Shown here piece after piece: positions 13,537-21,536 of a stretch of DNA of 49,518 nucleotides (position 1 is the stretch's first letter; the number at the start of each line of letters is the position of its first letter). Below the pieces are notes generated by a model. That model was not told the DNA's origin. It did no database searches and was given only the letters and a program-made list of their open reading frames with translations. Made by a program: the position numbers and the translations under genes. The DNA comes from an uncultured Pelagibacteraceae bacterium (lineage in GTDB: Bacteria > Pseudomonadota > Alphaproteobacteria > Pelagibacterales > Pelagibacteraceae). The stretch covers positions 1 to 49,518 of the forward strand of contig CACGHU010000003.1 in the NCBI GenBank assembly GCA_902572945.1, in the 5' to 3' direction.

Positions 13537-13612
13537 TGGTGCCCCTTGCCCGACTTGCACGGACGACTTTTTCCTTACCATGGAAATACTCTACTGCCTG
13601 AGTTAAAGGGGC
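13537..13612 (-). tRNA. tRNA-Thr(GGT)
   Basis: Reverse complement GCCCCTTTAACTCAGGCAGTAGAGTATTTCCATGGTAAGGAAAAAGTCGTCCGTGCAAGTCGGGCAAGGGGCACCA folds as a cloverleaf; anticodon loop ATGGTAA; encoded CCA. Confidence 0.95.
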
Positions 13613-17715: not shown

Positions 17716-17788
17716 GGGTCTCTGGTGTAGCTGGTGCGCACGAACGCCTGAAAAGCGTTAGGACCTGGTTCGTTTCCAGGGGGACCCA
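17716..17788 (+). tRNA. tRNA-Phe(GAA)
   Basis: GGGTCTCTGGTGTAGCTGGTGCGCACGAACGCCTGAAAAGCGTTAGGACCTGGTTCGTTTCCAGGGGGACCCA; 7-bp acceptor, anticodon loop CTGAAAA, 4-nt variable loop; followed by CCT, so CCA is not fully encoded. Confidence 0.88.
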
Positions 17789-17895
17789 CCTTAAAAATCA
17801 AAAATTAAACGCTTGCAATAAATTTTAAAATCTAATAACTAGTCTTCAGCTAATTTAGCTATAAGTAAACTATAAGAAGAAAGAGTAAAATAAGT

Positions 17896-18286: not shown

Positions 18287-18335
18287 TCATATTATAAATT
18301 TAAAATTAACTACAATTAGTATAAAATAAAGAAAG

Positions 18336-18410
18336 GCCCTGGTGGTGAAATGGTTATCACGAAAGTTTGTGGAACTTTAGTTTTTGGTTCGATCCCAAGC
18401 CAGGGTACCA
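18336..18410 (+). tRNA. tRNA-His(GTG)
   Basis: GCCCTGGTGGTGAAATGGTTATCACGAAAGTTTGTGGAACTTTAGTTTTTGGTTCGATCCCAAGCCAGGGTACCA; anticodon loop TTGTGGA; encoded CCA; adjacent to hisS. Confidence 0.95.
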
Positions 18411-18414
18411 AAAA

Positions 18415-19812
18415 ATGGAAAAAAACAAAAAACTCATACCTGGACTACCTACAGGTTTTGAAGATAGATGGGACAAAAAATTATACCTCAAAAAGAAACT
18501 TCTTAGTTTAATTGAGGAAAATTTTATAAGATATGGTTTTGAACCATTGGAAACGCCATCTTTTGAAATCAGTGAAAACATCGGATCATTTCTTGCAGAT
18601 GATGAAAGTAATCCTATGTCTGATGTATTTACTTTTAACGATGGAGAAAAAAAAATTACACTTAGATACGACTTATCAAGTCCTCTAGCAAGATTTGTTG
18701 CACAGAATAATCAACAACTTCCTCTTCCCTATAAACGTTATGCTATACAAAATGTTTTTAGAAACGAAAAAGCTGGTAACGCTCGTTACAGAGAATTTAC
18801 TCAAGCGGATTGTGATATAGTTGGAAACGTAAATCCAGCACAATCAAATGCAGAATTATGTAATTTAATAGCAAGCACTTTAATAAATTGTGGGCTTAAA
18901 AAAGATCAATTTATCATTAACGTGAGTAATAGAAAAATAATCCAGGGTTTAATACAAGACTTAAAAATTCCAGAGGAAAAACAAGTTAAAGTTATGAGAG
19001 CAATAGATAAGCTTGATAAACCAGGTTTTGGATTAAAAGGTGTTGAGGATTTATTGAAAAAAGAAAGAAAAGATAAAAGCGGTGCAGTTACAAAAGGTGC
19101 AAATTTAAGCGATGATCAAGCATTTCAACTCATCGATTTCTTAAAAATTAAAGACCTTAAAGAACTAAAGAAAAATTTTCAAAATTCACTCACCTTAGAA
19201 GGCATCAATGAAATCGAGCAATTATATGAGATTTTAAGTTATGGAGATTATAGCGATCAGGTAAAAACTAATTTTACAATTGTAAGAGGTCTCGAATATT
19301 ATGACGGATTCTGTGTCGAAACTAATCTGAAATTTAAAGTTACTAACAATAAGGGCAAGGAGATTGATATTGGCAGCATTTGTTCAGGTGGTCAGTACAA
19401 CAAGCTAATATCAAGGTTTAAAGGAGTAGATATTCCAGGCACCGGATTTAGTATTGGAGTAGATAGACTATTGTTTGCAATTTTGCAGTTAGGACAAATA
19501 GAAGTCGATAGCAAGAAACCGGCAATTGTTTGCGTAATGGATAAAAAATACCTCAAGAACTATTACGAAATACTCAAAATTCTAAGAGATAACGGAATAA
19601 GCTCTGAAATTTTTTTAGATAGTGAAAAAAATCTTGGAAAGCAACTAACTTATGCAAATAAAAGAGGATGTCCGGTAGCGGTAATTTGTGGAGAAAACGA
19701 GTTTAAAGAAAATACTATTACACTAAAAAATTTGCTAGGTGCAAAAGGAGAAAGCAATCAAATTACAATTCCAAAAGAAAACTTAATCAATGAAATCAAA
19801 AAATTCGTCTAA
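18415..19812 (+). CDS. hisS: histidyl-tRNA synthetase
   Basis: IPGLPTGFEDRW, TLRYDLSSPLARFVAQN, KRYAIQNVFRNEKAGNARYREFTQADCDIVG, RGLEYYDGFCVETN. The track ORF start at 18367 lies inside tRNA-His; first ATG is at 18415 (MEKNKKLIPGLPTG). Confidence 0.95.
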   Translation: MEKNKKLIPGLPTGFEDRWDKKLYLKKKLLSLIEENFIRYGFEPLETPSFEISENIGSFLADDESNPMSDVFTFNDGEKKITLRYDLSSPLARFVAQNNQQLPLPYKRYAIQNVFRNEKAGNARYREFTQADCDIVGNVNPAQSNAELCNLIASTLINCGLKKDQFIINVSNRKIIQGLIQDLKIPEEKQVKVMRAIDKLDKPGFGLKGVEDLLKKERKDKSGAVTKGANLSDDQAFQLIDFLKIKDLKELKKNFQNSLTLEGINEIEQLYEILSYGDYSDQVKTNFTIVRGLEYYDGFCVETNLKFKVTNNKGKEIDIGSICSGGQYNKLISRFKGVDIPGTGFSIGVDRLLFAILQLGQIEVDSKKPAIVCVMDKKYLKNYYEILKILRDNGISSEIFLDSEKNLGKQLTYANKRGCPVAVICGENEFKENTITLKNLLGAKGESNQITIPKENLINEIKKFV

Positions 19813-20851
19813 CAAAATCCTTGCATTAATTAAATCGCAGGGATTTAACAAAATCGAACTCGACTCTGTTTTGGAAACCAAATACATTTTGCAAAGATCG
19901 GGGGAAAATTTTAGAAAATATCTATTTTCTTTTTATAACTCAAATGGCGAAGAGTTATGTTTAAGACCAGATTTAACAATTTCCTCAGTATTACGATACG
20001 CTCAAGGAAACAGATTTAATAAGGAAAAGGTGTTTTATACGGGCAGTGCATTTAGAAAATCTTATAATAAGAAAAATATTTTAATAAAACAAATAGGTAT
20101 GGAAATTTTTTCATCTAAAGATGAAAATAAAGATGATAGAGAAATAATAGATACATCCATTAAAGTTTTAAAAAAAATAGGTTTTAAAAAAGCTAAGGTT
20201 GAAATTGGTAATTTCAAGATATTCGAATTATTAATTCAAAAACTTTCCATACCCCAAAGATGGAAGGATCGTCTTATCAAATTTTATTGGAATAAAAAAT
20301 ATTTTTCACAGTTACTAAAAAGGTTAGATAGTAATTCAGATATAGACCCCTTCATTGTTGCTGGAGATCACAAAACATATCTGAAAATGAAAAAAGAAAA
20401 CCCTAAAAAAATGATTGCTGGAAGAACATATGAGGAAATAATTGAACGATATGAAAGAAAAATAAACGATCCAAGATTAACTAAAACAGGAAAAAAAAGT
20501 TCTAAGATAATTAAAGAATTTCTCCAAATTAAGTGTCCTTTAAAAGACGCACCAAAAAAACTAAACGCTTTTTATAAAAAATATAATTTAAATATTTCTG
20601 TTGCAAAAGAATTTTTTCCTATTTCAAAACTTAATCAAAAAGATCTTAAATTTGAATTTTCGACATCAAGTGGTAGAGGTAGAGAAGTGGAGTTTTACAG
20701 TTCGTTTATATTTTCAATAGATGTAAAAATAAAAGGTAAGACAAAAACATTTATTGCAGGTGGAAGATATAACGACTTGTCCTCAAAAAATTTAGGCCTT
20801 AGAAAAATACCAGCAGTTGGAGCGGCAGTAAATTTAGGAGTTTATGAATAA
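19790..20851 (+). CDS. hisZ: ATP phosphoribosyltransferase regulatory subunit HisZ
   Basis: HisRS-like: LCLRPDLTISSVLRYAQ, FYTGSAFRKS, IAGGRYNDL; followed by short-form hisG. Confidence 0.88.
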   Translation: MKSKNSSNKILALIKSQGFNKIELDSVLETKYILQRSGENFRKYLFSFYNSNGEELCLRPDLTISSVLRYAQGNRFNKEKVFYTGSAFRKSYNKKNILIKQIGMEIFSSKDENKDDREIIDTSIKVLKKIGFKKAKVEIGNFKIFELLIQKLSIPQRWKDRLIKFYWNKKYFSQLLKRLDSNSDIDPFIVAGDHKTYLKMKKENPKKMIAGRTYEEIIERYERKINDPRLTKTGKKSSKIIKEFLQIKCPLKDAPKKLNAFYKKYNLNISVAKEFFPISKLNQKDLKFEFSTSSGRGREVEFYSSFIFSIDVKIKGKTKTFIAGGRYNDLSSKNLGLRKIPAVGAAVNLGVYE

Positions 20852-21536
20852 AGATATTATTAATATAGGTATTGTCTCAAAAGGAAGACTTAAAGAAGAG
20901 TCTGAAAAAATTTTCAGAAAAAATAATTTAAAAATTTACACCGAAGATGGTGAAAGAGGGCTGGTAGCCAAAGTTAAGAGTAGAAAAAATATAAGAGTAT
21001 TATTTCTTCATGCTAGAGAAATTATTGATCAACTATCTTTAGGAAATATTGATTTAGGAATAAGTGGTTTTGATTTACTGATGGAGTCTGAGATAAATAT
21101 TCAAAAAAACATAAAAGTTGAAAAAAAACTTAAATTTGGCTTTGCCACTTTGCAGCTAGCTGTTCGAAAAGAATTTATCGATGTTTTCACAACTTTAGAT
21201 TTAGATGAAGTTGCAGAAGATTATAGAAGAAAAAACAAAAAACTAATTCGTATTGGTACTAAGTATCCAAATCTTACACGTGATGCTTTGTATAAGCGAG
21301 GAGTAACAAATTTTACTATTGTAAAGTCTCTAGGAAGTACAGAATTGATGCCTGCAATGGATACCGCTATGTTGATAAGCGATATTTCCAGCACAGGAAC
21401 TACAATGAAAAAAAATCACCTTAGACCTTTAAGTGATGGTGAAATACTAAAATCACAAGCTTGCTTGTTTAGCTCAAAAAAATCAAAAAGTAAAAAAGGG
21501 TTACAGGGTTTAATAAAGTTATTTTCTAAACAATAA
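20844..21536 (+). CDS. hisG: ATP phosphoribosyltransferase, short form
   Basis: IGIVSKGRLKEES, LGISGFDLLMES, RIGTKYPNLTRDALYKRGVTNFTIVKSLGSTELMP, ISDISSTGTTMKKNHL; 230 aa HisG-S type. Confidence 0.95.
   Translation: MNKDIINIGIVSKGRLKEESEKIFRKNNLKIYTEDGERGLVAKVKSRKNIRVLFLHAREIIDQLSLGNIDLGISGFDLLMESEINIQKNIKVEKKLKFGFATLQLAVRKEFIDVFTTLDLDEVAEDYRRKNKKLIRIGTKYPNLTRDALYKRGVTNFTIVKSLGSTELMPAMDTAMLISDISSTGTTMKKNHLRPLSDGEILKSQACLFSSKKSKSKKGLQGLIKLFSKQ

Follow-up and report, generated by a model that had tools for sequence, protein, structure and literature searches.

A tRNA-His gene as the probable excised leader of hisS in SAR11 bacteria

The window analysed here is a stretch of 49,518 nt from a SAR11 (Pelagibacteraceae) genome (G000; 678 kb, 55% complete). 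On its plus strand, a tRNA-His(GUG) gene occupies positions 18336-18410 and is recognized both by ARAGORN and by Rfam RF00005 (58.6 bits); it has G1:U72, A73 and a canonical elbow (G18G19 / UUC), and its CCA is encoded at 18408-18410. A plus-strand AAAA spacer (18411-18414) is all that separates this CCA from the ATG at 18415 that opens hisS, the gene for histidyl-tRNA synthetase (465 aa, 18415-19812, plus strand; TIGR00442, 344.8 bits against a cut-off of 286.75), exactly as a first-pass annotation of this DNA had placed these features. Relatives align with the N-terminus of the protein, MEKNKKLIPGLPTGFEDRW, from residue 1, and no relative in the alignment suggests a later start. Two further plus-strand genes follow. 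A hisZ-like gene for the ATP phosphoribosyltransferase regulatory subunit (19790-20851; its best families are HisZ models, at scores below their curated cut-offs) overlaps the end of hisS by 23 nt, a position kept in 80/80 named loci; it in turn overlaps hisG, encoding ATP phosphoribosyltransferase (20844-21536; TIGR00070, over cut-off), and the order hisS-hisZ-hisG is kept in 79/80 named loci. Upstream of tRNA-His lie hisD, a tRNA-Phe gene and a cold-shock gene; of the 80 named loci, 69 retain hisD and the csp gene as well.

The short distance between tRNA and start codon is widely conserved. A search of 197 family genomes detected hisS in 177; of the 70 loci examined, 69 allowed a measurement of the gap from CCA to ATG, and 64 of these have 3-6 nt (4 nt in 44, 5 nt in 18, and 3 or 6 nt in two), the exceptions being five loci with gaps of 11, 28, 29, 29 and 47 nt. 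Among 80 named close relatives, a set that shares some genomes with the family set, all gaps fall at 4-7 nt (4 nt in 64, 5 nt in nine, 6 nt in four and 7 nt in three). The constancy of the spacing, which the first-pass annotation had named as a point to check, is borne out, and the same-strand CDS start lies about 10 nt or less from the encoded CCA family-wide. The composition of the spacer is equally uniform, with 95% A overall and exactly AAAA in 102 of 144 close-gap loci. Judged from this comparison of loci, the 4-nt gap is not chance. A draw across the class gave 28 hisS loci from alphaproteobacteria outside SAR11, and none of them has a tRNA-His nearby, which argues for a SAR11 trait rather than an old alphaproteobacterial one. 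The five family loci at 11-47 nt show that so tight a junction can be dispensed with. In L035, L037, L038 and L046, tRNA-His and hisS stand 28-47 nt apart, and the spacer of L038 carries a terminator-like hairpin (GAGACG...CGTCTT).

A putative promoter shared by the tRNA and the genes behind it can be recognized upstream of the tRNA, where a -10-like box, TATAAAAT, lies at 18320-18327 on the plus strand, 16 nt before the tRNA begins. Of 148 loci, 143 carry the motif (T/G)ATAA between -22 and -9 relative to the start of the tRNA, as compared to 7.3% in control stretches farther upstream; the box is recognized by this comparison between loci, a consensus scan of the single sequence having scored it no better than shuffles. 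On the plus strand of the window, no terminator-like site was found between tRNA and hisS. Given a box upstream of the tRNA, no room for a promoter in the spacer and no terminator, one transcription unit is the simplest reading. The proposal that the tRNA and hisS are co-transcribed is therefore supported at the level of sequence, with a candidate promoter ahead of the tRNA and none in the interval before hisS; the two genes almost certainly share a transcript, as far as the layout of the DNA can indicate, and co-transcription of the whole tRNA-His-hisS-hisZ-hisG unit appears well supported. Neither a terminator after the tRNA, nor a downstream hisS start with its own ribosome-binding site, nor a variable gap, each of which the first-pass annotation had named as grounds for abandoning its idea, was found to hold.

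Short distances between genes are common in these genomes. In P. ubique, intergenic regions have a median length of 3 nt (PMC2704228), and in the complete SAR11 genome G003, 7 of 30 tRNAs are followed by a same-strand CDS start no more than 11 nt from the CCA. In that genome, a tRNA-Gln precedes a CCA-adding-enzyme-like gene, two tRNA-Leu genes precede NAD-kinase-like and acyl-CoA-ligase-like genes, a tRNA-Glu precedes a GIY-YIG-like gene and tRNA-Leu(UAG) precedes a trigger-factor-like gene, and tRNA-Pro and tRNA-Thr are also tightly joined to a CDS (the partners are named here from a reading of their translations, not from a database search). Two of these pairs extend across the family: tRNA-Gln lies 3-7 nt upstream of cca in 29/30 loci (L242-L271), and tRNA-Leu lies 4-16 nt upstream of tig in 26/30. 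The tRNA-Gln pair is another case in SAR11 of a tRNA joined to a gene of tRNA metabolism. Tight tRNA-mRNA junctions are, on this comparison of genomes, a feature of the lineage, and a 4-nt gap by itself is not exceptional for SAR11; hisS stands out only by its partner, the cognate tRNA, and by the A-rich spacer (95% A, vs 57% for cca). Since other tRNA-gene pairs are packed likewise in the same genomes, dedicated regulation of hisS, or a specific tie between maturation of the tRNA and synthesis of HisRS, is unproven. The low intergenic median would also suit an arrangement in which the juxtaposition has no consequence, with a promoter or start site hidden inside the tRNA driving hisS separately. 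The window tRNA-His contains no promoter-like match, however, and because the tRNA body can differ by up to ~50% between close relatives, a promoter inside it would have to arise anew time after time; we regard mere packing as very unlikely.

It had also been argued that hisS lacks room for a ribosome-binding site of its own, and that the only Shine-Dalgarno (SD)-like run, AGGG at 18402-18405 on the plus strand, lies within the 3' acceptor strand of the tRNA. This part of the argument fails. Counting the start codons of all window ORFs of at least 120 aa (n=47), an SD-like motif is found at -17 to -4 in 8.5%, vs 8.5-15% in control stretches; window genes are thus not enriched in SD motifs, and the absence of room for a binding site is not peculiar to hisS. 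Neither is AGGG conserved in other SAR11 tRNA-His genes, several of which have acceptor stems without any AGGG, e.g. CCCAGCTGTACCA. On these two observations, an SD sequence within the acceptor stem was rejected. A T-box or another leader type was likewise rejected, as Rfam returns only tRNA matches in the window at gathering threshold, and no riboswitch. Initiation farther upstream deserves a brief mention: in the window, the hisS frame remains free of stops for 69 nt before the ATG, and an in-frame TTG inside the tRNA (18367) would yield a protein of 481 aa. In several relatives, however, the tRNA contains stop codons or lacks a start codon, and spacers of 3-7 nt shift the frame among relatives, so that a start within the tRNA is not a conserved feature; on the strength of these frame shifts we rule it out and give such a start next to no credence.

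The arrangement is real, conserved and lineage-specific, and we suggest that its most plausible reading is a streamlined operon whose leader, the tRNA, is excised. In the mechanism we propose, tRNA-His, hisS, hisZ and hisG would be transcribed as a single unit from a promoter directly in front of the tRNA; RNase P and a 3' endonuclease, with RNase E/G as the one clear candidate found, would excise the tRNA; the remaining hisS-hisZ-hisG mRNA would start at or near AAAAAUG, and hisS would be translated from it by SD-independent, near-leaderless initiation. Extreme genome streamlining may be what keeps this layout, as for the other tRNA-CDS pairs of SAR11. A single promoter would then passively link tRNA-His to its synthetase and to the enzyme that opens histidine synthesis. 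We infer the single transcript, the processing step, the enzyme and the near-leaderless translation from the organization of the DNA, and consider the explanation as a whole probable. From the known footprint, a ribosome on the hisS ATG would overlap the acceptor stem, and efficient translation of hisS thus probably needs the tRNA to be removed. In folding predictions, the start region is 97% unpaired once the transcript is cut after CCA; with the tRNA attached, the start region is 89% unpaired and the 3' strand of the acceptor only 18%. The MFE fold of the whole leader does not recover the cloverleaf and is uninformative (z 0.16).

As to the enzyme, RNase E/G scores over cut-off in all 9 complete SAR11 genomes, while a canonical RNase Z does so in none of the 9 (one model, TIGR02651; remote matches lie below cut-off), which makes RNase E/G the likelier endonuclease. 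A cut inside AAAAAUG could destroy the hisS start codon. The lack of a canonical RNase Z over cut-off, together with the pairing predicted for the acceptor strand in the intact transcript, would also fit a scheme in which 3' exonucleases mature the tRNA only by destroying the hisS message, the competition between these two fates setting the level of HisRS. This we consider improbable, given that the RNase E/G present in all nine genomes could separate tRNA and mRNA, and that one transcript yielding both products is simpler.

Within the fixed junction, the tRNA itself turns over rapidly. On a tree of HisS from 87 loci, a quick tree that ignores recombination, the type of the adjacent tRNA-His changes ~22 times and the close or far spacing 4 times. 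L010 and L015 are 88-99% identical in both flanks and only 58% in their tRNA bodies; for L180 and L012, the near flanks are 99-100% identical and all nearby differences fall within the tRNA. Over the pairs L010/L015, L012/L180 and L141/L144, tRNA-His bodies are 49-83% identical, adjoining DNA is about 90-100% identical and the spacer is kept. Taking the 260 pairs whose hisS genes agree in at least 95% of their first 300 nt, tRNA identity falls below 75% in 19% of them and upstream identity in none (the pairs are not independent of each other). The alignments indicate that the tRNA body is swapped in cassette-like fashion in a fixed slot while the junction stays. A phage source was rejected for the exact cores of two swapped alleles, which were absent from viral contigs; other alleles or diverged copies may still have one.

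Through all these exchanges the end of the acceptor stem is retained: the 34 distinct tRNA-His alleles all have G1:U72, and 33 have A73, the exception being L046 with G73. The derived alphaproteobacterial (RRCH-type) tRNA-His/HisRS pair is characterized by A73 and no fixed G-1 (PMC3937112). The SAR11 tRNA resembles it in the A73 of nearly all alleles, the window allele included, and in having no conserved encoded G-1, the base before position 1 being T, A, G or C (G in the window); it differs from that type in its constant G1:U72, in the fast turnover of its body and in the A18:G55 elbow seen in many strains.

This retained stem, and a spacer that stays short and A-rich despite the turnover of the tRNA body, are what might be expected if the attached tRNA-His were an operator, with HisRS on the unprocessed leader blocking ribosome loading 4 nt farther downstream, or blocking leader processing, and free uncharged tRNA-His relieving this feedback on hisS. 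The overlap of ribosome and acceptor stem expected from the known footprint would suit such a role. So would a precedent in yeast, where HisRS acts on a tRNA-His anticodon mimic carried by its mRNA and represses that mRNA in a manner dependent on tRNA level (PMC6542539). Against it, the same junction links tRNAs to genes that are not cognate to them, loci with gaps of 28-47 nt exist, and mature tRNA-His should far outnumber the precursor and titrate HisRS. By analogy, HisRS feedback through the attached tRNA is conceivable and dedicated feedback on hisS is possible; we nevertheless hold the operator to be unlikely, and quite unlikely the specific form in which a genuine attached tRNA-His acts in cis and the A-rich 4-nt junction makes repression and tRNA maturation mutually exclusive.

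In the literature collection searched, nothing directly relevant turned up on tRNA-His/hisS adjacency or on operons of synthetases with cognate tRNAs. The closest known systems are the following. The thrU-tyrU-glyT-thrT-tufB unit of E. coli is a tRNA-mRNA co-transcript; as in our proposed operon, tRNA and a translation gene would share one transcript and be separated by tRNA processing, whereas in SAR11 the tRNA is joined to the gene for its own synthetase by ~4 nt, without leader or SD. The thrS gene of E. coli has a tRNA-like operator. As with yeast HisRS and thrS, a tRNA-like element would stand in a synthetase mRNA (that of HisRS itself in the yeast case), with the difference that the SAR11 element is the real tRNA gene. 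In Gram-positive bacteria, T-box leaders make the expression of synthetase genes respond to the state of the tRNA; in contrast, the SAR11 window has no Rfam T-box or riboswitch match. Compared with leaderless and near-leaderless mRNAs (PMC9031893), the predicted hisS 5' end would similarly lie a few nt from the AUG, and unlike theirs would arise from tRNA processing, not from a transcription start.

Few bacterial groups in the ocean are as abundant as SAR11. If tRNA-His and the genes behind it do form one transcript, one promoter would serve the supply of the tRNA, the enzyme that charges it and the step that opens histidine synthesis, with no regulator needed; if the proposed operon is true, tRNA processing would routinely make mRNA 5' ends in streamlined genomes. 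The cassette replacement of the tRNA and its A18-G55 elbow may matter more than the junction.

The elbow pair G18-U55 (Psi55) is near-universal in tRNAs. At the standard positions, 56 of 150 hisS-adjacent tRNA-His genes have A18-G55 and the rest G18-U55, with no mixture of the two; in 51 of the 56, U54:A58 is also replaced, by A54:U58 or G54:G58. The A18-G55 loci comprise L008 (1423-1496) and ~50 more, e.g. L007, L029, L033, L038, L046, L141, L157 and L203; L046, which has the D-loop AAAATTA and is the least certain alignment, has in addition an apparent U19:A56 replacing G19:C56. About 10 changes between the two states are placed on the HisS tree, and the A18-G55 form of genus g9, which is different in its remaining sequence, looks independent. 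In the complete genome G003, the sole tRNA-His is of the A18-G55 form: Rfam gives 33 tRNA matches there, and the 30 read by ARAGORN and two read by eye include no tRNA-His. ARAGORN misses most A54 tRNA-His forms, and the A18-G55 elbow is the reason why many SAR11 genomes show no ARAGORN tRNA-His beside hisS. A search with a broad anticodon-loop pattern gave mostly noise.

The exchange is not confined to tRNA-His; A18-G55 also occurs in tRNA-Phe, in tRNA-Val(GAC) and in the tRNA-Thr(GGU) of the window (13537-13612, minus strand; D-loop AGGCAGTA, T-loop TGCAAGT), which was found by ARAGORN and has no Rfam match at gathering threshold. In a survey of 113 distinct tRNAs, every tRNA with U55 has G18G19. 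The literature collection searched contained no paper on A18-G55 tRNAs, which is not proof of novelty; the replacement of G18-U55 by A18-G55 would amount to a natural experiment on what a tRNA needs from its elbow. The tRNA-Phe(GAA) of the window (17716-17790, plus strand), ~550 nt upstream of tRNA-His, has G18-U55 and a U at position 58, and across L003-L211 tRNA-Phe is highly diverse and often of the A18-G55 form.
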